This document shows positions 2,140-28,416 of a DNA stretch of 33,827 bases, piece by piece. The position numbers were made by a program, and so were the translations under genes. Position 1 is the first letter of the stretch, and every line of letters begins with the position of its first letter. A model generated the notes under the pieces. The model searched no databases and was not told where the DNA came from. It saw only the letters and a list, made by a program, of their open reading frames with translations. Source of the DNA: Bacteroidales bacterium (GTDB lineage Bacteria; Bacteroidota; Bacteroidia; Bacteroidales; GCA-2748055); contig JAOZQY010000022.1 of assembly GCA_029931975.1 (NCBI GenBank), positions 1 to 33,827 on the forward strand. The letters run 5' to 3'.

Positions 2140-3312
2140 TTAAAAACTCCACTTCAAACGTAGAAAACCAAAGGTATTCTTCTCCCTGTTTTTATGGCCC
2201 GAGGGGTCTTCAAACTCGGCAGAAAAGTACTGAAGGATCAACGAGAGATCAAAATTGCTATTTATTGAGAGGTCGAAGGAGGGTCCCAGATAGACTCCTT
2301 TCCACCGGGGATACCAGATAGTGGCAAAGCCACCATTGATCAGCGGAGTAAGAGGATAACTTATGTTTCCAAAAAAGGACCATTCGGTAAATCCCAGGTT
2401 TTTTACGTCCAGACTACCCGAATAGAATTGCAGAAAACTGTAAATATCCAGGTCCTTTGCAAAGGCGGAATACAACCCTTCTATCTGGATCATCAAGGAA
2501 TTGGAGAAGGTATAGTCAAAGCCGACAGAGCTCATTAAATAGCCGGTGGTATCCTTAAACTGTTTCAGGTCTCTGAAATAGCTCATTTCGCCACGAAAAG
2601 CCGAGGAGCCTATATTTCCGCTCCAGCCCGCTCCAAGGACCAGGTCCTCTTCCTGGTAGATCCCGCCCAAGAGCTGGATATCAAAAGCCAGAGTGTTAAA
2701 CCTGAAGTATCCTGCAGCGGTGACCCGGTTGGCACTGTCGATCTTGGTAGCCAGCTCAATGCTTGAAGCATTCCCCGTATAATAAGAGAGTCGCAGGGCA
2801 TCGCTCCCGGGACGTTCAGGATAATCTACCTCGAAATAGGAGTAGCTGTTAAAGATGTCATTGGGATTCCAGACAAAGGTCTGGCCCCAGTTGATCCGCT
2901 GACGACCTGCTTTGATTTCCAGGTTTCCAAAGCTTGCCTGCAACCACAAGCGGTCCATGGTGGAGGCAAGTACATATCCGGCATTGTCTCCCAGATTTCC
3001 ATCATACATCCATGTCAGGTCCATCCAGCCGGGATCTCCGGCCAGCCCCTCTGTGTATCCGGGAATCTTAGCTATGGTGTTTCCGCTAATGATTCTGCTT
3101 CTGAATTGCAGGGAGCCGGACAGCCAGTCTGTGGGATAGATCATCAGCTTAAATCTGTTCTGTAAACTGTTTTCCCAGAGCCACTGGTTGGGAACATGGT
3201 AAGCGGTTTGCATATCGGAAATGTAGCCATTGAGGCTTATCTTCTCCTGGCCCCGGGCTCCGGCAGAAATCAGCAGGATAAAAAAGAGTATGCAGATGGG
3301 CCTTCTGTTCAT
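2140..3312 (-). CDS. Outer-membrane beta-barrel protein of the ABC export operon
   Basis: A 390-residue protein with a clear signal peptide (residues 1-22, cut after GARGQ). The rest is a series of alternating hydrophobic/polar strands ending in LRLKWSF, a C-terminal aromatic typical of barrel proteins of the outer membrane. The segment GRQRINWGQTFVWNPNDIFN (136-155) followed by ERPGSDALRLSYY recalls the family signature of DUF1302-type porins; the family link is my inference. It is the last gene of the operon and starts only six bases after the ABC ATPase ends, which argues that it is the outer-membrane exit or acceptor of the transport system. No enzymatic motif is seen. The barrel call is fairly sure; the exact function is unknown. 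Confidence 0.8.
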   Translation of the reverse strand: MNRRPICILFFILLISAGARGQEKISLNGYISDMQTAYHVPNQWLWENSLQNRFKLMIYPTDWLSGSLQFRSRIISGNTIAKIPGYTEGLAGDPGWMDLTWMYDGNLGDNAGYVLASTMDRLWLQASFGNLEIKAGRQRINWGQTFVWNPNDIFNSYSYFEVDYPERPGSDALRLSYYTGNASSIELATKIDSANRVTAAGYFRFNTLAFDIQLLGGIYQEEDLVLGAGWSGNIGSSAFRGEMSYFRDLKQFKDTTGYLMSSVGFDYTFSNSLMIQIEGLYSAFAKDLDIYSFLQFYSGSLDVKNLGFTEWSFFGNISYPLTPLINGGFATIWYPRWKGVYLGPSFDLSINSNFDLSLILQYFSAEFEDPSGHKNREKNTFGFLRLKWSF

Positions 3313-3318
3313 TGCCCC

Positions 3319-4005
3319 CTAATTCTTTCTTTCGTCTGAAATCACTTTTCCGTCTTCAAGGGTAATGACCCTTCTGGCTTTTTTTACTACACGGGCATCG
3401 TGGGTGGAAAAGATAAAGGTGATCCCCTCCTCCTTATTCAACTGTTCCATGATATCCAGCAGGGTTTCGGTGGATTTGGAATCCAGGTTGGCGGTGGGCT
3501 CGTCGGCCAGCACAAACTTGGGCTTGGATGCCAGGGCACGGGCTACAGCCACCCGCTGTTGCTGTCCACCCGACAGTTTTGACGGTCTGCTGTTGATTCG
3601 GTCCTCCAGCCCTACAGCCTTCAGCAGTTCAAAGGTGCGGTCATCTCGTTCCTTCTTGTTCCATTTCTGCAGACTCATGATGAACTCAACGTTCTCTTTG
3701 GCGGTAAGCACAGGTATCAGGTTATAGGACTGGAATACAAAGCCGATGTTGCGCATTCGGAAATCGATCAATGCCGAAGATTTTAATCCGGCCAGGTTGG
3801 TTTGATCCACTATAATTTCTCCATCGCTTGGAGTGTCGAGGCCACCAATCATATTCAGCAGGGTGGTTTTCCCCGATCCCGAAGGACCTACAATCGCTGC
3901 AAATTCCCCTTTTTCAAAGTCCAGGGAAACGCCATTCACGGCATGAACTTTCACCTCGGAGCTGTTGTATATTTTGTGTACGTTTTTGATTTCTAATATT
4001 TTCAT
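3319..4005 (-). CDS. ABC transporter ATP-binding protein, LolD/MacB type
   Basis: The cytoplasmic ATPase subunit of an ABC transporter, 228 residues. It has Walker A GPSGSGKTT (40-48), Q-loop Q92, signature LSGGQQQR (144-151), Walker B FVLADEP with E169, D-loop NLDS and switch H202 (FSTHD). The SYNLIPVLTAKENV segment after the Q-loop is typical of the LolD/MacB/FtsE group, which drives conformational change in FtsX-fold permeases rather than classic import. It lies downstream of the two permease genes. The gap of 62 bases holds a strong hairpin and a 12-base direct repeat, which may set its level relative to the permeases. All ATPase residues are intact. Confidence 0.93.
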   Translation of the reverse strand: MKILEIKNVHKIYNSSEVKVHAVNGVSLDFEKGEFAAIVGPSGSGKTTLLNMIGGLDTPSDGEIIVDQTNLAGLKSSALIDFRMRNIGFVFQSYNLIPVLTAKENVEFIMSLQKWNKKERDDRTFELLKAVGLEDRINSRPSKLSGGQQQRVAVARALASKPKFVLADEPTANLDSKSTETLLDIMEQLNKEEGITFIFSTHDARVVKKARRVITLEDGKVISDERKN

Positions 4006-4021
4006 GACTTTTGTATTTTAT

Positions 4022-4078
4022 ACTATCTAACTATCAACTATCTAACTAAGTACAGAATAGCCTGTGGCTATTCTGTAC
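4022..4078 (-). promoter_or_regulatory. Intercistronic 13-bp perfect hairpin plus 12-base direct repeat
   Basis: GTACAGAATAGCC (4050-4062) and GGCTATTCTGTAC (4066-4078) form a perfect 13-bp stem with a three-base loop. The permease stop codon (4070-4068) lies inside the stem. Next to it the 12-mer ACTATCTAACTA occurs twice (4022-4033 and 4037-4048), separated by TCA. On the transcribed strand there is no U run after the stem, so it does not look like an intrinsic terminator. An RNA-stability or processing element between permease and ATPase messages is more likely. Confidence 0.65.
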
Positions 4079-5495
4079 GCAAGGCTTCAGCCGGATCCAG
4101 CTTCAGGGCTTTCAATGCCGGATAGATGGAAGAAAGGATTCCGGTAATAATGATCAGGACGGTTACAGTTATGAAGAAGGAGCTTGAGATTACAGGATAA
4201 ATATGAGAAGTAAATCCCATGGCTTCCAATCCTTCGGCATAGTTGCTAAAATTTATTCCATTCGTTGAGGTCAGACCGATAATGATCTTACTGAAAATCA
4301 TTCCTACCACGCCACCTATCAGGGAAAGGAATACGGATTCAAGCATGATCATTTGGAATACCTTCTTCTTATTCATTCCGATGGCTGTTAGCATTCCCAG
4401 CTCCTTGGTTCTTTCGAGCACGACCATCAGCATGGTATTTACAATACCGAATGCCAGTGCTGCTAAAATAATGACCATGAAGAAGGCATACAACTTGCTT
4501 ATCATGTCGATCATCATGGCCAGGTCGGGTTGTATCTCTTTCCAGCTCATGATCTCAAGGCCGGGAAGTTTTTTTTCCAGAGAAGCTGCCATCTCTTTGC
4601 TGGCATCCGGGTTATCCAGTCGGACAATGATTTGATGATACGCGTCCGGGGCCAAACCGGTAAGTTCTGCCAGGTCCTTATTTTGAACCAGCACCTGGCT
4701 CATTTCGAACATGCTGTTCTTGATATCAAAAATTCCTGCAATCCTGAATACAGCCCCGGTCTGCATCTGGTCTTTATCAAGGAAAGTCAGTGTCATTTTT
4801 GAGCGGGTCCTGAAGGACCATGCTTCCTCCTTGATCAATGCGCCGTATTCATGTTGTTCTTTCATGGAGAGCACAGTCTTCATTTCCTTTTTAAAAGCTT
4901 TCTCACTTTTGAAGCGTTTGCCATTGAAAGGAGCTAATCTATCCAGTACTTTCACCGGAACCCCCCTTGCAGCCAGGTTGTCGAGCATTTCCTGATCGAT
5001 TCGGTAACGAATAATGTTCAGTTCTTTAGCAAGCTCCTGGCCAATGAAAGCCAGTTTATGGCGACTTTCTGTTTCAAAAAAATCACCTGTTGCCGGCATG
5101 GTGGTTTCATTGAGCCTTAGTACTTCTTTTTCTTTTTCCGGATCGATTCCCACGATCTGTACCCCTGCACTCTTGGTGGCCGTATTGGCCATGCCGCTAA
5201 TCACTTTCCGGCCACAAGCTGCGTTCACGCCTGGTGTTTCCTCTACGCTTGAAAGAACCTTTTCAGCATCAGGGATGAGAAGTTGCATATCGTAGTTGTC
5301 ACGAAAGGCCGGATCATTAATATGTATATGTGATATTTCTTCATTCAGAGCGGCATCCACACGCTGCTCAATGGCGCCATTCATAACGGCTACTGCGAAG
5401 ACGCCCCCAAAGATCCCGATGGTGATTGAAATAATGACCACCAGGCTGCGGACCTTGTTTCGCCAGATGTTTTTCCATGCTGTTTTCCAGATCAT
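4068..5495 (-). CDS. ABC transporter permease, FtsX/MacB (LolC/E-like) fold
   Basis: An inner-membrane permease of 475 residues. The topology is the LolC/E/MacB pattern: one N-terminal membrane helix (about 17-39), a large periplasmic domain (about 40-330), then three helices (about 336-359, 382-407, 436-460). The cytosolic segment ERTKELGMLTAIGMNKKKV (361-379) after the second helix is the typical coupling loop that contacts the ATPase. The periplasmic domain includes a charged stretch at about 160-235 that may be an insertion compared with shorter family members. It starts 10 bases after the preceding permease gene ends. The two permeases are different in sequence, so the pump is probably a heterodimer as in LolCDE. 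The substrate is not shown by the sequence. Confidence 0.9.
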   Translation of the reverse strand: MIWKTAWKNIWRNKVRSLVVIISITIGIFGGVFAVAVMNGAIEQRVDAALNEEISHIHINDPAFRDNYDMQLLIPDAEKVLSSVEETPGVNAACGRKVISGMANTATKSAGVQIVGIDPEKEKEVLRLNETTMPATGDFFETESRHKLAFIGQELAKELNIIRYRIDQEMLDNLAARGVPVKVLDRLAPFNGKRFKSEKAFKKEMKTVLSMKEQHEYGALIKEEAWSFRTRSKMTLTFLDKDQMQTGAVFRIAGIFDIKNSMFEMSQVLVQNKDLAELTGLAPDAYHQIIVRLDNPDASKEMAASLEKKLPGLEIMSWKEIQPDLAMMIDMISKLYAFFMVIILAALAFGIVNTMLMVVLERTKELGMLTAIGMNKKKVFQMIMLESVFLSLIGGVVGMIFSKIIIGLTSTNGINFSNYAEGLEAMGFTSHIYPVISSSFFITVTVLIIITGILSSIYPALKALKLDPAEALRTE

Positions 5496-5505
5496 ATCAA
5501 ATAGC

Positions 5506-6921
5506 TTATGCTCTTAGAGCGTTTACGACTTTCATTGTGAAAATTTTTCGGAGGGGATAGACGATAGCCAGTAGTACCATGGCCAGGACGATCAAAATTT
5601 GGGAGATGTAGTAGATATCGATGGTCCAGAAGGCAAATTGTGGCTCCATGCCATACTCTTCAAACATAAGAGCCATTTCTCCCTTGAATATAAGGGGATG
5701 ATTCACACCATAAAGGATGAGGATAGTGGCAACTATTACTCCGGCAAGGAGGCCCAGCATTCCAATCAGCAGCATCTCCAGGGTTATGACCGAACTGAGT
5801 TTCTTTTTCTGCATTCCGATGGCCACCAGAACCCCGAACTCTCGCTTTCGCTCAGCCGTAAGCATTAATACGGTTCCGAATATTCCAAAGGCAATCACCA
5901 GGTACAGGATCCCCAGCATAATCTGTCCGCCTTTATCATCTGCATCCATCTGCGAGACCATCACATCGTTCATCTCCCTCCATTCCATGACCCTCTTCTC
6001 CCCCGACACCAGGCCGCCGATCCTTTCAACGGTTCCGGCTATGGCCCTGTCTTTGTTATCCTTCACCGCCAGAGCCAGGGAGGTAAGGTTTCCCTCTGCA
6101 TTATAAAGCCCCTGGCAAATATCAAGGGGCAGGTAGACAATCTTATTATCAATATCGGGAAGCGGAAGTTTCACGATCCCTTTGATCTCGTATTTACCTG
6201 CAGCTGTGGTGGCATGATAACCCTGGCTGATCAATACAATGGTGTCCCCGATGCCCAGCTTCAGGTAGCTGGAAAGCTTTTCACCCACCCAGACCCCGGG
6301 CTCACCCATCTCTATATGGCCATTGTCAAAACGGGAATATTGTTCGATGGCTGGCATCCACTGCCCGGCATCTTTATCACTGATGCCCAGATCCAATTGT
6401 AGCCTGGAGGCAGTGGTATAAGTGCTGTTTTCAAACAGTGGAGCCAGTTCTTTAATCTTTTCAGGCAGATTGCTGTCCTGTTTGATAAGCTCAATGGATG
6501 CTGCACTTAGTTTGTATTTCACCATTTTGTCTGTGACCTTCGACAGGTGCTCTTCCTTTTCAGGATCCACACCCATAACCATAACCCCCTTGGTTTGCGG
6601 GCCATTGGAGGCAAGGGCAAAGGATTCGAAGCGCGGTATTGTAGCTGTCACATTTGCATCCGCAAGGATCCGTTGCTCCAGTTGCCGGTCATAAGGGAAG
6701 GTGTTGTCAACTATCTTTTCTTCCCAGAAATCCTTGTGCTGTACCTGGATGTACCCGGTATAAGATTCAATGGCGTTCTTATACATGTGATCATAAGATC
6801 CCAGCTGGAGGGATCGCATAAACAGGGCGAAAAAGACTGCAAAGAAGATGGATGCTGAGGTGATCAGTGTACGGCGTCTGTTTCGCCAAAGATTTCGCCA
6901 TGCAAGCTTTAAATTATTCAT
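5506..6921 (-). CDS. ABC transporter permease, FtsX/MacB (LolC/E-like) fold, second subunit
   Basis: A 471-residue inner-membrane permease with the same plan as its neighbour: membrane helix at about 18-38 after a basic RNLWRNRRR stretch, a long periplasmic domain, then three C-terminal helices. The coupling loop ERKREFGVLVAIGMQKKKL follows helix 2. Near the N-terminus of the periplasmic domain, ESYTGYIQVQHKDF resembles the short conserved stretch seen in LolE/LolC-like permeases. It begins 24 bases after the LolA-like gene ends and is followed after 10 bases by the other permease gene. It is presumed to pair with that permease and the ATPase at 3319-4005. Assignment to the fold is firm; the substrate is unknown. 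Confidence 0.9.
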   Translation of the reverse strand: MNNLKLAWRNLWRNRRRTLITSASIFFAVFFALFMRSLQLGSYDHMYKNAIESYTGYIQVQHKDFWEEKIVDNTFPYDRQLEQRILADANVTATIPRFESFALASNGPQTKGVMVMGVDPEKEEHLSKVTDKMVKYKLSAASIELIKQDSNLPEKIKELAPLFENSTYTTASRLQLDLGISDKDAGQWMPAIEQYSRFDNGHIEMGEPGVWVGEKLSSYLKLGIGDTIVLISQGYHATTAAGKYEIKGIVKLPLPDIDNKIVYLPLDICQGLYNAEGNLTSLALAVKDNKDRAIAGTVERIGGLVSGEKRVMEWREMNDVMVSQMDADDKGGQIMLGILYLVIAFGIFGTVLMLTAERKREFGVLVAIGMQKKKLSSVITLEMLLIGMLGLLAGVIVATILILYGVNHPLIFKGEMALMFEEYGMEPQFAFWTIDIYYISQILIVLAMVLLAIVYPLRKIFTMKVVNALRA

Positions 6922-6945: not shown

Positions 6946-7707
6946 TTAACGAATCCGTTTCATGTTCTGTTGGGAAAAGAAACTCTCTTTAATGGGAGCG
7001 TTGAAATGGTTCTCTTTAATCTCAATAATAGTCATCTGCCCCTCTTCCTCGGCCGGGATCATCTCGATTCGAGTGGGAATCAGGCGTCCGTCCATGGTTT
7101 TTATTTCGCTACCTGTTTCGGTTCGAACCAGGTAGCCATCTTCGTCGTAAAGCTCTGATTTCAGGAAGAGGAAATCCTTTTTATCTATCCAGCGGATCTG
7201 GTGTCCCCAGATGACAGCTGCATCTTCTTTGGCCACCAATTTGATTTTATAACACATGCGGCCGTCTACCTCTTCTTCTCCCACGATCTGATGGGTATAA
7301 TCGTTGACCACGGACGATTCTTTCAGGATATCATCATTGGTATAGTCGGAGCCCATCCAGCCCTGCGACATCATGGAAGGAGGAAGTTTAATCAGCCGGC
7401 TGATGGTGGGGTTCCAGCTCCACATTTCATTCTGGCGCTTCAGGAAAGATTGTCCTTTATCCTTGGCGGGAGCGGTAATCAGGGTCAGGGCATACTCTCT
7501 GCCACTGGTCCAGTTCTTAAACTCAATGGTTCGCTCCCAGGTGGGCCGGACGATGGTCATGGCCATAATGCTGGTACTGGTCTTTTCGCCATTGAATTTT
7601 TCATCTGCTTTGTGAACAATCTCTTTGGGGGAGAGATCCTGTCCCAGCACGGGGAAGGTTATTCCCGAAAGTAGGAACATTGTTAGTAGTTTGGTTCTTG
7701 TTTTCAT
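6946..7707 (-). CDS. LolA-like periplasmic carrier (outer membrane lipoprotein-sorting protein family)
   Basis: A 253-residue exported protein with signal peptide 1-22 (cut after PVLGQ). The mature part shows the pattern of the COG2834/LolA_like family: WERTIEFKNW, then TAPAKDKGQSFLKR, MWSWNP and the diagnostic MGSDYTNDDI (118-127). Members fold as an open half-barrel that can hold acyl chains or lipoproteins. This is not the housekeeping LolA; relatives often sit beside RND or ABC pumps and an outer-membrane barrel. Here it lies 16 bases after the TetR gene and 24 bases before the permeases. The likely role is to carry a lipid-like or lipoprotein substrate from the pump to the outer membrane. 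That role is inferred from fold and context. Confidence 0.87.
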   Translation of the reverse strand: MKTRTKLLTMFLLSGITFPVLGQDLSPKEIVHKADEKFNGEKTSTSIMAMTIVRPTWERTIEFKNWTSGREYALTLITAPAKDKGQSFLKRQNEMWSWNPTISRLIKLPPSMMSQGWMGSDYTNDDILKESSVVNDYTHQIVGEEEVDGRMCYKIKLVAKEDAAVIWGHQIRWIDKKDFLFLKSELYDEDGYLVRTETGSEIKTMDGRLIPTRIEMIPAEEEGQMTIIEIKENHFNAPIKESFFSQQNMKRIR

Positions 7708-7723: not shown

Positions 7724-8329
7724 TTAACTCGATCGTTTTGTGAACATCCCAATGACTCGTTCCTCGTAAGAGCGGAGCAGCTCATCGGGCAACTCAACAC
7801 TGGGATAGGCGTAAACCATCAGTACCCCGAAGCCTTCAATCATGGCGGAGAGGGTAAGCATCTCCAGGGCGGGGTCCTCAAAATCCATATCTGTGAAATA
7901 GACCATCAGCATGGGGCCATATTGCTCCATGACATTGCTGAAGGGCTTGCCTTCCAGGAGCTCTTTGACCCCGGGTTGAAGTACAATGTTGATATATAGA
8001 ATCCAGAATTGCTGGTTCTCCCTGATACTGAAAAAGACTTTCCTGATGAATTTTGTCAGCTCCTCTGGGGTCAGCACCCCGTCATGGTTGGGGTCAAAAT
8101 AGTCCAAAAATTCACTTATACCCTCTTCTATGATGTCTGCCAGCAGGGCCTCTTTACTCTCAAAATAGTTATACATCAAGCCCTTGGAAATGCCAGCATG
8201 CCTGGCAAGCCTGGCAATGGAGCAGTTGGTGTAACCCTCCCGGGCAAAGAGCTCCAGGCCAGCTTCCATGATCTGAGCCCTTCGCGATTCGCGCATCTCT
8301 TCAAACTGTTCTGCTGTTCTTGGCGACAT
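7724..8329 (-). CDS. TetR/AcrR-family regulator with an embedded EF-hand motif
   Basis: A 201-residue transcriptional regulator, first gene of the export operon. The N-terminal HTH (about 16-62) has the family pattern FAREGYTNCSIARLARHAGISKGLMYNYFESKEALL. The C-terminal part is all-helical, as expected for the ligand and dimer domain. Residues 79-91, DPNHDGVLTPEEL, match every position of the canonical EF-hand calcium loop (D79, N81, D83, G84, L86, T87, E90). They are flanked by amphipathic helices (EFLDYF before, LTKFIRKVF after) that fit the E and F helices. An inverted repeat overlapping its own promoter suggests autoregulation. TetR assignment is firm; calcium sensing is inference from the motif. 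Confidence 0.93.
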   Translation of the reverse strand: MSPRTAEQFEEMRESRRAQIMEAGLELFAREGYTNCSIARLARHAGISKGLMYNYFESKEALLADIIEEGISEFLDYFDPNHDGVLTPEELTKFIRKVFFSIRENQQFWILYINIVLQPGVKELLEGKPFSNVMEQYGPMLMVYFTDMDFEDPALEMLTLSAMIEGFGVLMVYAYPSVELPDELLRSYEERVIGMFTKRSS

Positions 8330-8340
8330 GTGTTTATGAC

Positions 8341-8354
8341 TGACCGCTCGGTCA
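8341..8354. promoter_or_regulatory. Probable TetR operator (inverted repeat)
   Basis: TGACCG (8341-8346) and CGGTCA (8349-8354) form a perfect inverted repeat around CT, 12 bases upstream of the TetR start. Form and position are typical of TetR/AcrR operators. The right arm overlaps the TTTG end of the -7 promoter element on the minus strand, so bound repressor would block the operon promoter. It lies about 110 bases from the divergent sigma-factor gene. Confidence 0.75.
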
Positions 8355-8385
8355 AAGATAGCGTTATAGAGGTAGGAAAAGCAAA
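8353..8385 (-). promoter_or_regulatory. Bacteroidota-type promoter of the TetR-LolA-ABC-barrel operon
   Basis: On the minus strand TATCTTTG (8360-8353) matches the -7 consensus TAnnTTTG exactly. TTTG (8385-8382) supplies the -33 element, 21 bases upstream. Transcription would start near 8346, giving a leader of about 17 bases before the TetR ATG at 8329. The operator at 8341-8354 covers the -7/start region. Confidence 0.7.
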
Positions 8386-8463: not shown

Positions 8464-8949
8464 ATGACGGTAGAAGAGTACAACAGGGCAGTGGATGCTT
8501 ATGCAGACAATCTATACAGGTTTGTAGTGAAGAACCTGAAGAATGACATGGCTTCTTCGGATGTTATCCAGGATACCTTTGAAAAGTTATGGATGAAACT
8601 GGAGGAGGTAAGCGCACTCAAGGTAAAAAGTTACCTGTTTACCTCGGCCTATCATACCATGATCGATTATATCCGGAAAGAGAAAAGGTATATAGATGTA
8701 AATCCTGTTCATATGCTTGAACTATCGGGCAATGACCAATACTCAGACCTGGGAGAGGTGCTGGAGCGGGCAGTTCAAAATCTGCCGGAGGATCAGAAAG
8801 CCGTGGTCATGCTGCGCGACTACGAAGGTTATTCATACCGGGAGATCGCAGAGATTACCGGGCTAAGCGAATCGCAGGTCAAGGTTTACATTTACAGGGC
8901 CAGGGTCTATTTGAAGGCTTATATAGGATCGATGGAACAAGTGATATAA
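8464..8949 (+). CDS. ECF-type RNA polymerase sigma factor
   Basis: A 161-residue sigma-70 family protein with region 2 (about 7-75; VIQDTFEKLWMKL and the -10-binding MIDYIRKEKR) and region 4 (about 97-151; LPEDQKAVVMLRDYEGYSYREIAEITGLSESQVKVYIYRAR). It lacks regions 1 and 3, as ECF factors do. It probably directs transcription of a small envelope-related regulon. It is divergent from the TetR operon. Six bases after its stop begins a one-helix membrane protein that looks like its anti-sigma factor. A poor match to the vegetative -7 element (TAACTTTC, 8414-8421) lies upstream. The family is firm; the regulon is unknown. Confidence 0.92.
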   Translation: MTVEEYNRAVDAYADNLYRFVVKNLKNDMASSDVIQDTFEKLWMKLEEVSALKVKSYLFTSAYHTMIDYIRKEKRYIDVNPVHMLELSGNDQYSDLGEVLERAVQNLPEDQKAVVMLRDYEGYSYREIAEITGLSESQVKVYIYRARVYLKAYIGSMEQVI

Positions 8950-8955
8950 AGAAAG

Positions 8956-10050
8956 ATGGGTATTAACAGACATAACTATGAGGCATTTTTGCTGGACTTG
9001 CTGGAAGGCAGATTGTCTGTTGATGACCGACGGCAATTGGATGAGTTTCTGCTGTTGAATCCAGGTTGCAAGGGTGATATTCTGGAAGGGGAACTCTGGT
9101 TTCTGGAGCCTGAAAAGGTCTCTTTCCCCGGATCGGGGGCTTTGAAAAAAGAGCTTCCCGGCGAGACCTCATTGCTGACCGATCATAACTTTGATCTCTT
9201 TTCCATTGCGCGGATGGAGGGTGATCTCACTGATGAGCAGGAAACGGCCCACCAGGCTGTAATCGATGTCGATACTCAGAAAGCCGGCCAATGGAGAGAG
9301 TGGCAGAAGACCAGGATGATTCCGGAGTCTGTGCTGCTGAAGGAGAAAGCGCAGTTATACCACAGGAAGGGATCCGGAAGCAGGGTGCTCTGGCTCAGAA
9401 CGGTTTCTGCTGCAGCTGCAGTTACACTGCTTATTGTACTCTTCAGGATAGGCCTCATTCTTCCTCAGAAGGAATTGAGCCTGGAAGTGCTCCCTGAAGC
9501 AGAAAGCGCGCAAGTTCCTGACACTCCTGATCAACCGGAAGTTCAGAAGAGCGAAACCAGCCAGGTTGAGGTTCAGTCGCACCAGGAAACACTTGATCCA
9601 CAAGTGCAAAAGGCCAGGAACCCTGTTATGTTTTCCATTAAAAAGGAGCATGAGCTTCCTGCTGAGGTGCAAGAACATATCAAGCCAAAGGACGATATGC
9701 AGCCTCGCCCTCTTCGAATCGCGGAATATATGAAAAATACTGTCCTGCTGCCTGGAGAAGTTGTTCCGGACCGGATTGTGCCACTTGAAATTCCACCCGT
9801 TCCTATTCACCTGGGTAGTTTGACCGTTGCACAGCTTGTACACTTGGACCCACAGGTGCTGTTTGATGAGTATACCAGGGAGCGGGACTTTTCCATGTGG
9901 ACCATCGCCAATACCGGTCTAAAGGGGATCAACAGGATTACTGGTTCAGATATCTCACTGATGGCCTCCCGTGATGAAGAGGGGGAAGTCTCCGGGTTCC
10001 AGCTGAAATCCAGGCGCTTTTCCATGACCAGGCCGCTGGGAAGGGAATAA
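8956..10050 (+). CDS. Anti-sigma-factor-like single-pass membrane protein
   Basis: A 364-residue protein directly following the ECF sigma gene, with a six-base gap. The N-terminal region (1-140) is cytoplasmic. It begins with HNYEAFLLDLLEGRLSVDDR, resembling the start of Bacteroidota proteins annotated as anti-sigma factors. One membrane helix lies at about 146-169, preceded by RKGSGSRVLWLR. The periplasmic part (170-364) starts with a Pro/Gln/Glu-rich linker (about 180-240). It ends in a compact region containing NTGLKGINRITGSDISLMASRDEEG, which looks like a conserved C-terminal domain. Gene order and topology suggest that it holds the sigma factor at the membrane and responds to an envelope signal. 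No FecR or zinc-finger motif is evident. Confidence 0.75.
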   Translation: MGINRHNYEAFLLDLLEGRLSVDDRRQLDEFLLLNPGCKGDILEGELWFLEPEKVSFPGSGALKKELPGETSLLTDHNFDLFSIARMEGDLTDEQETAHQAVIDVDTQKAGQWREWQKTRMIPESVLLKEKAQLYHRKGSGSRVLWLRTVSAAAAVTLLIVLFRIGLILPQKELSLEVLPEAESAQVPDTPDQPEVQKSETSQVEVQSHQETLDPQVQKARNPVMFSIKKEHELPAEVQEHIKPKDDMQPRPLRIAEYMKNTVLLPGEVVPDRIVPLEIPPVPIHLGSLTVAQLVHLDPQVLFDEYTRERDFSMWTIANTGLKGINRITGSDISLMASRDEEGEVSGFQLKSRRFSMTRPLGRE

Positions 10051-23387: not shown

Positions 23388-26300
23388 TTAGATTTTCATT
23401 CCAACCACAATCACATCGTCAATCTGATCCAGATCTCCTCTCCAGTGTTCAAACTCTCTGTCGAGCTGCAGGCCCTGCTCACGCATTTCTTTTCCTGCAA
23501 GTGAGATCAACAGATTTTTAAATGGAAGGTATTTGAACTTTTTGCCTTGGGGACCACCAAACTGGTCTGCATAGCCATCAGAAAATATATAGAGATGATC
23601 ACCGGGTTTAAGGTCGATTTTGTGACCGGTAAAAGGATGCATTACCAGGTGAATACTTACAGGCATTTTGTCTGTTTTGTATTCTGTCAGTTCTCCGCCT
23701 CTTACCAGGTAGAGCGAATTATTGGCACCGGCAAATAGAAGACGTTTTTTGTCTTTGTCAACCTTGCAAACCACCATATCCATTCCGTCTTTCGCTGTTC
23801 CGGGGTCTCCTTTCTGGTGCAGGGTTTCAATAATCTGGCTGCGCAATTCATTGAGCAGACTGTCGGGATCTATATCAGGGTGTTTGTTGACGATTTCGTT
23901 CATCAGGGCCATACCCAGCATGCTCATAAAAGCTCCGGGGACCCCATGACCTGTGCAGTCTGCTGCGGCAATATAGAAATGTTTTTCCTGCTGGCTGAAC
24001 CAGTAAAAATCCCCACTAACAATATCCCGTGGTTTATATAAGATAAAGTATTCCGGGAGCCCATCTTTCAGGATATGGGAGGATGGAAGCAATGAGTTCT
24101 GGATGGTCTGCGCGTAGTGGATGCTATCCATGATCGCTTTCTGATGCTGAGCAATCTGATCCCGCTGGAATCTTGCAAAATCACGCTGGGCCTCAATCTC
24201 CGTATTGGCCACTTCCAGCTCATGGGTCCGCTCCCTAACCTGTTGTTCCAGCCTGTCTTTCTGAGCCTTGATGGTTCTGATTCTGATAATATAAAAGAGG
24301 TAAGTGGCTGCAATGAAGGTCAGGATGAGCAGTATTCGAAATACCCATGTATTGTACCAGGCCTTGCGGATGAAAAAGTCATAGTTTTGCGTGTAACCCC
24401 AGATATTGTTTTTCCCTTTTGCCTTGTAGATAAAAGTATATTTACCGGGAGGCAGGTTGTTGTAATACGCTTTATATTCATTTCCCCGGTGGTAGGAGGA
24501 ATACTGATTTCCTGTTCCTCTCAGGTAATATTCATATTCTACCGAAGTTTCATCTGAAAAAGAGAGTGCACTTATTTCGAAAATAAAATTATTTTCATTG
24601 TGTGAAAAGATTTGTTCATTTTCAGGGAGAACAGGGTCCCCGTTAAGAAACATTTTTTCGATGTAGCATACAGGAGCAAAATTCTGAGTCGATTTGGCCC
24701 TGATATTGAAATTGGAAATCCCATGGTAGGTTCCCACCCAGAGCAAATCATTCTGGTCCAGGTAGAGTCCGCCCGGTGTAATCTCATCCCCACTTAGTCC
24801 GTCTTTGGTATTAATGGTGAATTCAAATTCCTGGTTGATGGTATTGAAATAGGAGAATCCTTTATTTGTACCAAGCCAAAGGTAATTCCTGTTTTTTGCA
24901 GGCAAAATCGATTTGATCATCATCTCGCGGTCGAAGGTGGAAAGTTCCATCTGTTCGAAACGATTGTCTCTTACGAGGCCAATTCCACAGTCGGTACCCA
25001 CCCAGATCTTATTTTCCTCCTGGTGGAGTGACCAGATATTACATTCGGTTTGCTGAAGCAGTTCAAATTCTGTCCCGTTAAACTCCACAAAACCCGAGTT
25101 GTTGCCCCCAATTATTTTTCCGTTCACCTCGATAAGCTGAAATATATTGGCGGTAAATTTATTTTTGAGTTCCCTGGGCCGGGAATAGAAGTCGGGAAAA
25201 TAGTAGATAATCCCGTTAATGCCTGTAAGCAGGAACATTTCACCTTTGGATGTTACAAAAATATTTTCAATGCCGTGGGCAATCTGTGTGAAGGGTTTGT
25301 GCCTGACAATCTCCAGTGTTGCGCTGCTTACTTCGAACAGCCCTTTATTGTTGGCCAGCAGAATATTTTCATTGGGCAAGAGGGTCCCTGTGAATTTGGT
25401 GTTGTTCGACCCTATGACGGGGGTGAAGTTCACGGGCTGATCATGATCATAGTAAAAAGCTCCATTGTCAGAAGTGATCCACATTCGCTGCCGCTTATCC
25501 TGAAAAACAGAATAGATGTAACTGTTGATGGTTCCGGGATAAAAATTACGTAATCCCTTGCGGTTGGTCAGACGTTGCAGTCCACCCGAAAAACCAATCC
25601 AGATATTGTCTTCATGATCGATCAGGAAGGAGAGAATCTTGTTGTTTTTAATCCCGATTTCCTGCTCATAAATGATAGGTTCCTGGTCGGTGGAGATGAC
25701 CTGCATAATTTGTGAGTCGGTCACAAGCCAGATGGACCCAAATTTATTGGTGGTGATATCTGAAATAATATTGACAGGGAAATGAAGCCTGTTGTTCAGG
25801 TTTTGAAAGTTGGTTTTTCGGCGATTCTCAATCAGATCTGATAAATGCGCAATGGTGAGGCCATCTCTGGTTGATATCCAGATGCTATCATTGACATCTA
25901 TATAAAGGGAATAACAATCTACGTCACTCAACTGGGTAAGCTGTTCCCCTAGGGGATCAAACATAAACACTCCCTCATTGGAGGCAAAGAGGAGATTTAA
26001 GCTTCCCGGATCTTCCGTGATGCTATAGATGACCCCGGGCAGGGTGGGGTGTTCAGCATTGAGATACCGTGTTTCTCCAGTGTTACTCTCCTGGTAGATC
26101 CCGTCATCGCTGATAAACCACCGCATATCTCTGGAATCGATAAATATATTTTGAAAAGAGAGACCTTCCCAGAGGATTGCCAGGGTTGAATCGCCTGAGA
26201 ATTTTGTGATGCCTCCTGTGGTTGCAAAATACATGGTGCCACTGCTGTCCTGTTCAATGTCCCGGACCGAATTTCCGGGAAGCCCCTGTTCATGATTGAA

Positions 26301-28031
26301 TACCGTCATTTCCCGACCATTGTAGCGAACAGCTCCTGAATTTGTTCCGAACCACATATATCCTTTTTTATCCTGGAAGATTGAAAATATATCCTCCTGG
26401 GGAAGTCCGTCGTTTGCACCATAATTCACGTAGGGTAACTGACCGGTCTGAAAACTCTCGTAGTAGCTGTTAATAAATGCTTCCGGTGCCTGCAGGGTAT
26501 TTCCCCGGAGTGCTTTTATCAGTATACCGATCAATCCCTGTTGTTGTGATCTATGAATGAATTTTTCAACCTCCTTCTGAAGTTTAGGCTGGTCCTTACG
26601 CAGCGCCCAGCTCACATTTACACTTCCCAGTTCTAACTTTGCTTCCAGGTTGGGATACTCCGATAACTCATTAAATGCGTTGTACAGAATGGTATAATCG
26701 GCCTTCCCGGCCAATACATCGGGAATAAAGTTGTTTATATTTTCGTAGTAGTAGTTTGTAATACCGTTCTTTTTCAGCATATCCTCATAAACTGTTCCGC
26801 TACCGGTTACTCCACGAAAATTTTGCAAATCATCCAGGGTTTCAATTTTTGCTTCTTTCCTTGCCATTACAGTGTAGGTGGATGGGTACACCGGAATCAT
26901 ATTGACCTTGTTGGACCTCCAGTCGAGCGGGGCAATGGTCTCACATGCCAGGTCAAAATAATTGAACCATTCAGGGGTGTAAGAGGAGTCTCGTACGACT
27001 TCTCCTTCATCGTTCTCCCAGTATTTTTCAAAATGAGGGGTTACCACAAATTCAAGGGTGACTCCCAGGTAATCAGCAAACTCTTCTGCCAGGGCATGCA
27101 TGAATTGCTTTTGGCCGTTTTCATGGTAAACAAAATCCCGGTCACGGAGAGCTACTACCAGTGTGCGGGAAGCAATGATCTCATCCAGGTCCCGGTGGTA
27201 GCGGTCAAGTTTCAGATTCTTATTGACCCGGTCCAGATAGGAGTGATACGTAATGCCAAAACGTTTAAAAAAAATCTCATCCAGGATTCCGTTACTAGCA
27301 ATGGTCTCGAAAAAATTTTCAACTTCCTTGATCAAAGGGTTGTTCTTTTCAACGGCCCAGGCCGTTTTGCTGATATCGCTTATTGGGAAGGCAATTTTAT
27401 ATTTTTGCCCGCTGTTTGCAATGAAATTCAGGGCCTCATCAGCATCAAGTACAATCCCATATACTTTGCCTTCCTCAATCAGATCTTTGGTTTCTACTGT
27501 GGATCCGGTTCTGATCAATTCAATTTTTTCCCCGAGCGTATTGTTTATTTCTCTGAGGTGCTCGTCGAATGTCGTGGCTCCCATGAAAGCGATTCGCTTA
27601 TTGGAAAGATCAGCAATTCCTCCGGGAATAGTCTCGTTTTTGTTGATGATTAACAATTCGGCAGACTGGAGGGTTTGAGCAAAACCAAAAAGTTTTTTTC
27701 GCCACTCATTAATGGTAAATGTGGAGCAAATAATATCGGAATGCTTGAGTGCATCGGGTGTATACAGGAGATCGGGATTGCTTTTCATGTCGGAAGGAAT
27801 GCTTCCGTTTTTCTTAAAGGCTTCATCCCAATCGATCTCTACTTCAATGAGTTCAACATTGAGATAGCGGGCAAACTCCAGGGCAAGGTCATGGTTGATG
27901 TTCCTCAGGTCGTCGGAAGTAAAAGCCACATATATTTTTCCAGATCGTCTGATTTCATCCAGGCTCCGGCCAAAGACTCCGGCCACAAACAGAAGTAGTA
28001 TAAGAAATAGAGTTTGTCTTTTTAGAAACAT
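23388..28031 (-). CDS. Transmembrane receptor with two periplasmic binding domains, beta-propeller and SpoIIE phosphatase
   Basis: A 1547-residue protein, starting at the ATG at 28031 (MFLKRQTLFLILLLFVAGVFG, signal or anchor) rather than a TTG 15 bases earlier. Domains in order: two tandem SBP_bac_3-type binding folds (about 22-265 and 280-525; each opens like IRRSGKIYVAFTSDD or IIASRTLVVALRDRD); a two-component-regulator propeller (about 535-1110) with repeated W(F/I)GT/S units; a Y_Y_Y-like domain ending in GKYTFIYKAKGKNNIWG; a membrane helix (about 1229-1250); a coiled coil; and a SpoIIE/PP2C phosphatase (about 1305-1547). The phosphatase metal ligands are present (SGDFYW, AADCTGHGVPGAFMS, DGMDMV, FSDGYADQFGG, QIDDVIVVGMK). 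Family logic suggests that ligand binding outside controls dephosphorylation inside. The target is not in the window: no STAS or anti-sigma kinase gene is adjacent. Confidence 0.9.
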   Translation of the reverse strand: MFLKRQTLFLILLLFVAGVFGRSLDEIRRSGKIYVAFTSDDLRNINHDLALEFARYLNVELIEVEIDWDEAFKKNGSIPSDMKSNPDLLYTPDALKHSDIICSTFTINEWRKKLFGFAQTLQSAELLIINKNETIPGGIADLSNKRIAFMGATTFDEHLREINNTLGEKIELIRTGSTVETKDLIEEGKVYGIVLDADEALNFIANSGQKYKIAFPISDISKTAWAVEKNNPLIKEVENFFETIASNGILDEIFFKRFGITYHSYLDRVNKNLKLDRYHRDLDEIIASRTLVVALRDRDFVYHENGQKQFMHALAEEFADYLGVTLEFVVTPHFEKYWENDEGEVVRDSSYTPEWFNYFDLACETIAPLDWRSNKVNMIPVYPSTYTVMARKEAKIETLDDLQNFRGVTGSGTVYEDMLKKNGITNYYYENINNFIPDVLAGKADYTILYNAFNELSEYPNLEAKLELGSVNVSWALRKDQPKLQKEVEKFIHRSQQQGLIGILIKALRGNTLQAPEAFINSYYESFQTGQLPYVNYGANDGLPQEDIFSIFQDKKGYMWFGTNSGAVRYNGREMTVFNHEQGLPGNSVRDIEQDSSGTMYFATTGGITKFSGDSTLAILWEGLSFQNIFIDSRDMRWFISDDGIYQESNTGETRYLNAEHPTLPGVIYSITEDPGSLNLLFASNEGVFMFDPLGEQLTQLSDVDCYSLYIDVNDSIWISTRDGLTIAHLSDLIENRRKTNFQNLNNRLHFPVNIISDITTNKFGSIWLVTDSQIMQVISTDQEPIIYEQEIGIKNNKILSFLIDHEDNIWIGFSGGLQRLTNRKGLRNFYPGTINSYIYSVFQDKRQRMWITSDNGAFYYDHDQPVNFTPVIGSNNTKFTGTLLPNENILLANNKGLFEVSSATLEIVRHKPFTQIAHGIENIFVTSKGEMFLLTGINGIIYYFPDFYSRPRELKNKFTANIFQLIEVNGKIIGGNNSGFVEFNGTEFELLQQTECNIWSLHQEENKIWVGTDCGIGLVRDNRFEQMELSTFDREMMIKSILPAKNRNYLWLGTNKGFSYFNTINQEFEFTINTKDGLSGDEITPGGLYLDQNDLLWVGTYHGISNFNIRAKSTQNFAPVCYIEKMFLNGDPVLPENEQIFSHNENNFIFEISALSFSDETSVEYEYYLRGTGNQYSSYHRGNEYKAYYNNLPPGKYTFIYKAKGKNNIWGYTQNYDFFIRKAWYNTWVFRILLILTFIAATYLFYIIRIRTIKAQKDRLEQQVRERTHELEVANTEIEAQRDFARFQRDQIAQHQKAIMDSIHYAQTIQNSLLPSSHILKDGLPEYFILYKPRDIVSGDFYWFSQQEKHFYIAAADCTGHGVPGAFMSMLGMALMNEIVNKHPDIDPDSLLNELRSQIIETLHQKGDPGTAKDGMDMVVCKVDKDKKRLLFAGANNSLYLVRGGELTEYKTDKMPVSIHLVMHPFTGHKIDLKPGDHLYIFSDGYADQFGGPQGKKFKYLPFKNLLISLAGKEMREQGLQLDREFEHWRGDLDQIDDVIVVGMKI

Positions 28032-28035
28032 GGCA

Positions 28036-28416
28036 TTACTTTTCAAAAAACTCTTTCAGTCCGCCAAAATAGAAAACATCCCATCCATGAATCATATCTT
28101 CATATGCCTCATCGGGAATATTGGTATGATGAAGATCAATTTTTGTGAAATGCCTGTTTGGACGCAGGGAAATGGTCACGATGGATTTCTCTTCCTGATC
28201 GCCAAAAAACCATTCCTGTACGATTTTGCTGTCCTTTTCAAAGGAGATATTAATGCCTTCGATATCCCCATCGAAGAGAGAAAACGGTGTTCCCGGCTCT
28301 TCTTTCATTTCAGCTTTAGCACCCGTCCAGAGGGCAATAGCAAAAGGATTGATAAGTGCAGCATAAATCTCTTCGGGAGAACCTTTGATGCGGTAGTATT
28401 TGCGTAGTTCTTTCAT
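28036..28416 (-). CDS. SRPBCC (START-like/AHSA1-type) domain protein
   Basis: A 126-residue cytosolic protein. YYRIKGSPEEIYAALINPFAIALWTGAKAEM and the C-terminal IPDEAYEDMIHGWDVFYFGGLKEFFEK are characteristic of the helix-grip SRPBCC/AHSA1 superfamily, which binds hydrophobic ligands. It has no active-site signature and the ligand is unknown. It lies four bases before the receptor-phosphatase gene and is probably co-transcribed with it. A promoter-like TATTTTTG on the minus strand (28440-28433) lies 17 bases upstream of the ATG, without a good -33 element. Confidence 0.85.
   Translation of the reverse strand: MKELRKYYRIKGSPEEIYAALINPFAIALWTGAKAEMKEEPGTPFSLFDGDIEGINISFEKDSKIVQEWFFGDQEEKSIVTISLRPNRHFTKIDLHHTNIPDEAYEDMIHGWDVFYFGGLKEFFEK

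Follow-up and report, generated by a model that had tools for sequence, protein, structure and literature searches.

The window analysed here is the whole 33,827-nucleotide stretch of contig JAOZQY010000022.1 from a Bacteroidales bacterium (assembly GCA_029931975.1). A TetR-family regulator gene, whose product contains an EF-hand loop, lies there on the minus strand at the head of a predicted operon, with a putative operator and promoter in front of it. The features are as follows:

2140..3312, minus strand, probable outer-membrane barrel (weak DUF1302 match, E 3.7e-4, below cut-off; its position recurs in relatives)
3319..4005, minus strand, ABC ATPase (PF00005, E 1.1e-35)
4068..5495, minus strand, FtsX/MacB-type ABC permease 2 (PF02687, E 5.3e-19)
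5506..6921, minus strand, FtsX/MacB-type ABC permease 1 (PF02687, E 3.5e-13)
6946..7707, minus strand, LolA_like protein of the outer-membrane lipoprotein-sorting type, next in the predicted operon (PF17131, E 1.8e-55; adjacency conserved)
7724..8329, minus strand, TetR-family regulator gene, 201 aa, ATG start (open reading frame, TetR_N match, fold by structure)
8039..8116, minus strand, match to the EF-hand_1 profile over residues 72-97, running from the end of helix 4 across the loop into the first part of helix 5, below the curated cut-off
8060..8095, minus strand, codons of the EF-hand loop, residues D79-E90 (DPNHDGVLTPEE), between helices 59-78 and 88-104; conserved in relatives
8337..8354, minus strand, predicted operator TGACCGAGCGGTCAGTCA, 18 bp, near-palindromic, 7 bp before the start codon (upstream conservation)
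8353..8360, minus strand, predicted -7 promoter element TATCTTTG, overlapping the operator (TAnnTTTG consensus)
8382..8385, minus strand, predicted -33 element TTTG, 21 bp upstream of the -7 element (read from the sequence)

On the other side of the regulator gene, a divergent ECF sigma factor gene (8464-8949) is followed by a fast-changing gene encoding 364 aa (8956-10050). Both adjoin the TetR gene in the closest relatives and are found a few kb off in some more distant ones. Elsewhere in the window (23388-28046), a 1552-aa protein combines a periplasmic solute-binding domain, two-component regulator propeller repeats and a SpoIIE phosphatase domain, a composition that would make it an unusual one-piece sensor.

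TetR regulators, which rank among the most common switches of bacteria, are known to respond to small molecules. The assignment of the window protein to this family, already made in the preliminary description, is upheld by an N-terminal TetR_N helix-turn-helix (PF00440, residues 20-65, E 2.2e-15, 56.6 bits against a Pfam cut-off of 24) and by an AlphaFold2 model of the monomer (mean pLDDT 91.1, pTM 0.82), which adopts an all-helical TetR fold over its full length. The structural neighbours of this model are TetR-family proteins, the top one being RutR (Z 15.9, rmsd 3.4 over 191 residues). The protein scores only 53.1 bits with the NCBIfam FadR model, far under the cut-off of 200.

Residues 79-91 (DPNHDGVLTPEEL) match the PROSITE-type EF-hand loop pattern used here as a test, with acceptable residues at loop positions 1, 3, 5, 9 and 12 and a Gly at position 6 (D79, N81, D83, G84, T87 and E90). 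The loop is thus complete, every ligand position being acceptable as first described. Its claimed location between helices 4 and 5 agrees with the AlphaFold2 model, in which it separates helix 59-78 (helix 4) from helix 88-104 (helix 5), with a mean pLDDT of 94 for residues 81-90 and of 85 for residues 71-80. Helix 5 begins at loop position 10, which is where the exit helix starts in the canonical EF-hand register. When the loop fragment is modelled alone, two helices (2-21 and 31-49) are predicted and the exit helix starts again from position 10. No second, paired EF-hand was found in the 201 residues, which therefore hold a single EF-hand motif and not a canonical paired EF-hand domain of the calmodulin type. 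An unpaired EF-hand usually has a weak affinity.

A Pfam search for both domains had been suggested in the preliminary description. TetR_N is clearly recognized but EF-hand_1, although found in the window protein (E 2e-4, 21.1 bits), does not reach its curated cut-off of 25.4 bits. Among ten relatives that were scanned, four exceed this cut-off (L046, 28.3 bits; L054, 27.0; L098, 26.9; L050, 26.2), four stay below it and two, L058 (Carboxylicivirga linearis FB218, loop DPNHDGVLTEEE) and L064, match no EF-hand family at E 0.001 despite their loop. At E up to 1, EF-hand_1 is detected in 48 of the 68 members of a family alignment (A1), window protein included. Across the 4.76-Mb genome to which the window belongs, this profile matches two places at E up to 0.001, none of them over the cut-off, and the TetR gene is the better of the two.

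With the loop fragment alone, Foldseek reports 42 matches up to an E of 10, mostly calmodulin, S100 and other EF-hand proteins, together with Tim9/10-type chains, Tetrahymena complex IV and dockerins; with a best Foldseek E of 1.7 and a best Z of 4.9, these matches favour an EF-hand identity weakly. A profile of 47 loop-bearing TetR fragments (A2) retrieves 569 PDB sequences at E up to 1, and the best 60 of these 569 are by name all EF-hand proteins or fusions containing one, except 8v3l_A (a CCDC81B chain). The best whole-sequence E (5.8e-15) is a sum over several EF-hands of one target, whose best single stretch has an E of 8.9e-4. As the A2 fragments were picked for their loop, these matches indicate that the stretch reads as an EF-hand and not how frequent it is.

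The loop is not an oddity confined to the window protein, since it recurs in relatives. The regulator is present in 22 of the 28 genomes of the window's family, its own included (E up to 1e-20). At the level of the order, a profile search of 393 genomes at E 1e-30 gave 110 matches distributed over 106 genomes, counting that of the window, and all 110 were read. A strict loop is found in 66 of them and a near-canonical one in 7 (73 together) and the other 37 lack the loop, the loop-bearing share being perhaps somewhat high because the A1 profile derives mostly from loop-bearing rows. A1 consists of the window protein and 67 loci: from 80 loci, five (L065, L077, L083, L095 and L099) were left out of the alignment references on account of unknown or stop letters, and the remaining 75 were reduced by a near-copy (L041) and seven likely paralogues (L088, L089, L090, L094, L097, L103 and L104). 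The conservation of D79, N81, D83 and E90, which the preliminary description proposed to check, is partial: it holds in the 73 loop-bearing matches out of 110 and fails in 33 of the 99 order-level matches located beside a LolA-like gene.

Where the loop is present, its ligands are strongly conserved. Of 88 non-redundant loop-bearing rows, all 88 have a Glu at position 12, where Asp was also permitted by the selection rule, positions 1 and 3 are Asp or Asn in 88 each and position 5 is Asp in 82, whereas positions 4, 7, 10 and 11 vary. The ligand codons are mixed synonymously (GAA 79 and GAG 40 for E12; GAT 85 and GAC 25 for D1). A recent origin without selection is not favoured, as the ligand codons vary synonymously while the non-ligand positions vary in residue. 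Loss can be recent: a relative from the same genus (L013/L034; 72% identity) has a Lys at ligand position 5 and has lost the loop. Altered loops also occur, namely an NPDHDD-type loop in L070/L071 and loops without the ligand set in L080/L086.

The four key ligands (positions 1, 3, 5 and 12) occur together in 61 of 98 non-redundant rows chosen regardless of the loop, against 28.9 expected if they were independent. The corresponding ratio of 2.11 exceeds those of all 2000 four-column control sets (maximum 1.94); this control does not remove the shared ancestry of the rows, which also affects its own columns. Three key ligands are present in 6 rows, two in 8, one in 11 and none in 12, so that 25 rows are intermediate. 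As the linkage exceeds that of the controls, these residues tend to come and go as a set, as one would predict for a metal site. The loop pattern appeared in 33 of 100,000 shuffles of the window protein, and the strict pattern, the only one looked for, was found nowhere in 82 distinct other TetR proteins from the same order (from 90 TetR loci: 30, plus 60 taken down the list, skipping members of the studied family). Ligand conservation, the linkage of the four positions and the absence of the pattern from these 82 proteins rule out a chance origin of the loop.

The distribution of the regulator is wider than that of its EF-hand. Among 394 genomes drawn from the phylum, 35, including the window's own, have a match at E up to 1e-30; of the 35 matches other than its own, 29 were read, all from outside the order, the six weakest being left out. 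None of these 29 homologues from outside Bacteroidales carries the EF-hand loop and 25 of the 29 have a LolA-like gene in their locus. Therefore, the regulator and its operon extend further than the EF-hand, which, judging from these sequences, was added within the Bacteroidales part of the regulator family. The aligned stretch has 34-35 residues in the 29 outside homologues against 35 in the window protein, which would fit an EF-hand that arose through substitutions at existing positions and not through an insertion, even if the alignment mode can hide insertions. Many of these loop-less homologues have a DP near the turn between helices 4 and 5. On a quick tree inferred without the loop columns, which is not cleanly rooted and has 69 of 184 inner branches poorly supported, the loop state changes at least 22 times, compared with a mean of 55 in shuffles, and 8 of these changes are forced by well-supported branches. 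Such repeated changes indicate that the EF-hand loop is dispensable. One gain followed by many losses, or several gains, could explain this pattern; the loop reads almost the same throughout the order, which probably favours few gains.

In most relatives with long enough DNA, the same gene order (TetR, LolA-like, FtsX, FtsX, ATPase, barrel) is found, in keeping with the export operon named in the preliminary description, at the head of which the TetR gene lies. The LolA-like gene adjoins 66 of the 73 loop-bearing order-level matches, two of the 73 having too little DNA to tell, and 33 of the 37 loop-less ones. The EF-hand is not required for the operon, as indicated by the 33 loop-less matches among the 99 beside a LolA-like gene and by the 29 loop-less homologues from outside the order. 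Conversely, the operon is not strictly required for the EF-hand, since 10 of 186 rows carry a full or near-canonical loop and have downstream room but no LolA-like gene. The loop-bearing genes of L185 and L196 precede FtsX permeases, that of L155 precedes a gene for a radical-SAM protein, and the gene following the loop-bearing TetR gene in L053 and L098 has no Pfam match. In Parabacteroides sp. PFB2-10 (L068:7998-8597), an EF-hand TetR relative has the same type of operator-like site in front of it and is accompanied by an AraC regulator gene and then a topoisomerase gene in place of the LolA-like operon. In L079 (1214-3955), the genes after a near-canonical EF-hand TetR gene code for another TetR protein and for an outer-membrane efflux protein; this type of sensor may thus serve other exporters.

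The promoter consensus of Bacteroidota is TAnnTTTG with a -33 element, and the predicted operator overlaps such a predicted promoter. An operator-like site with at most 4 mismatches to a consensus was found in 179 of 185 upstream regions, including those of 103 of 104 genes with a strict loop, 14 of 15 with a near-canonical loop and 62 of 66 without the loop; the close relatives that supplied this consensus are, however, not independent of it. Among 930 shuffled upstream regions, none comes closer than 5 mismatches. The site overlaps TAnnTTTG in 159 of the 179 cases, 135 of which have a TTG 19-23 bp further upstream. As operator-like sites are kept with and without the loop, DNA specificity seems to have hardly changed with the EF-hand. 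The operator of FadR is a palindrome of similar look. The genome of the window (96% complete, both strands) has a single copy of the site when up to 2 mismatches are allowed. A regulon is thus not supported and only local control is. The palindrome at the regulator's own promoter looks like a TetR operator, and its overlap with the promoter suggests repression by the TetR protein, which is best read as a local, self-controlling repressor.

Taken together, these data lead to a reading to which we give somewhat better than even chances: the window protein would be a self-controlling TetR repressor, acting on a LolA-like/FtsX ABC/outer-membrane operon, whose allosteric hinge has acquired a calcium sensor. 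In members of the TetR family, the DNA-binding head is connected to the ligand domain by helix 4, and the swing of this helix determines how far apart the two heads of the dimer lie. The switch might operate as follows. The repressor would control its own operon (the TetR, LolA-like, two FtsX, ATPase and probable barrel genes) from a single palindromic operator lying over the promoter. Within the Bacteroidales, the turn joining helices 4 and 5 has evolved into a single EF-hand, of which helix 4 is the entering helix and helix 5 the exit helix, and which places the putative calcium site at the hinge. When cytosolic Ca2+ rises, for example after envelope damage or at high external calcium, the loop would bind the ion and, once filled, would hold helix 4, to which the DNA-binding head is attached, at a fixed angle to helix 5 of the ligand domain. 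This would alter how far apart the two DNA-binding heads of the dimer sit and hence their grip on the operator. Release of the DNA by calcium, leading to induction of the operon, is somewhat likelier than a role of calcium as co-repressor. Calcium influx as the signal and operator release as the response are preferred because the operon looks like one for envelope transport. The usual TetR pocket may in addition receive another ligand, possibly an acyl compound like those of FadR, that acts with calcium. The more specific proposal of a one-component calcium-responsive factor, whose EF-hand arose in the TetR hinge and through which calcium entering via a damaged envelope directly switches an operon servicing that envelope, is tentative and has slightly less than an even chance. 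Given the 33 loop-less regulators among 99 beside a LolA-like gene and the 29 loop-less outside homologues, the proposed switch would be an optional layer in one lineage and not a general feature of this regulator. Several observations go against the favoured reading: 37 of the 110 order-level matches lack the loop, among them the same-genus relative with its Lys at position 5, 25 of 98 rows have a partial ligand set, the loop is dispensable, the EF-hand is single, the structural matches of the isolated loop fragment are weak and the window protein does not reach the EF-hand_1 cut-off.

A serious rival, although we consider it unlikely, is that the loop constitutively holds a divalent ion (Ca2+ or Mg2+) that merely stabilizes the turn between helices 4 and 5, the signal being an ordinary ligand of the pocket. 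The EF-hand being unpaired and missing from 33 of the 99 regulators beside a LolA-like gene would fit such a structural ion, as would the presence, among the closest solved TetR relatives, of FadR-type regulators, the ligands of which are acyl-CoA according to the titles listed for them. This rival accounts poorly for the many orthologues that lack the site, which indicate that the fold has no structural need of it, and for the Glu, never Asp, at position 12 of all 88 loop-bearing rows. Glu rather than Asp at this position favours Ca2+ over Mg2+. Less probable still is the same calcium sensor with the opposite sign, calcium being a co-repressor, so that the loaded protein would bind the operator and falling calcium would derepress the operon. 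Nothing in the sequence fixes the direction and nothing decisive speaks against this version, which overlaps the favoured reading and differs from it in sign only. It is improbable that the loop resembles an EF-hand merely through the needs of helix capping (an Asp/Pro/Asn/Gly turn and a Glu cap) and binds no metal: the turn between helices 4 and 5 is general in TetR proteins and DP lies near it in many loop-less homologues, but the four ligand positions co-occur more than in the 2000 control sets, the whole loop matches EF-hand profiles and the strict pattern is found in 0 of 82 other TetR proteins.

To our knowledge, bacterial calcium signalling is still without clear one-component, DNA-binding sensors. 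Under the favoured reading of a hinge calcium sensor, calcium-controlled bacterial transcription becomes testable with a 201-residue protein and 18 bp of DNA. Moreover, homologous regulators located beside the same LolA-like gene, with near-identical operator-like sites and with or without the EF-hand in their hinge, constitute a natural comparison that bears on how a new sensor joins an old repressor. The earlier claim that no TetR regulator with an EF-hand had been described is consistent with the open-access full-text literature, a scope outside which most subscription journals fall: no prior report was found among the matches listed, in the portions of text available. Papers among these matches that name both an EF-hand and the TetR family deal with rhizobial transcriptomes and with zinc. 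The places listed from PMC7407188, PMC10574481 and PMC13171946 concern tetracycline, tetra- and similar words and not TetR. Since members such as L046 exceed the Pfam cut-off, some entries may already carry both TetR_N and an EF-hand by automatic annotation.

Several described systems are comparable to the regulator of the window. The FadR-type regulators, that of Bacillus subtilis included, have the same fold and are among its closest solved relatives by profile (3whb, E 2.9e-21; 1vi0, E 2.4e-21), but they answer to acyl-CoA and have no EF-hand loop at the turn between helices 4 and 5 among the five alignments listed. In Porphyromonas and Prevotella, excerpts of one report describe strongly regulated TetR/LolA-like/MMPL operons, in which a TetR/AcrR regulator gene lies beside genes for an outer-membrane lipoprotein-sorting protein and an ABC transporter, and give iron starvation as the signal (PMC10434189). 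These operons encode an MMPL transporter and the excerpts mention no EF-hand, whereas the window operon encodes FtsX permeases and an EF-hand TetR protein. Calmodulin, the Entamoeba calcium-binding protein and NCS-1 share with the window protein the 12-residue loop and, according to the prediction, the helix-loop-helix register; they have several paired EF-hands and no TetR DNA-binding domain, in contrast to the one loop inside a repressor found here. EfhP of Pseudomonas and CaBP of Caulobacter are bacterial EF-hand proteins tied to calcium responses, as proposed here for the window protein; EfhP has two EF-hands and CaBP, which is periplasmic, has three, and neither is presented as a DNA-binding regulator in the passages available. 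The window protein appears from its sequence to be an ordinary TetR repressor with an unusual, lineage-specific site of the calcium type in its hinge.
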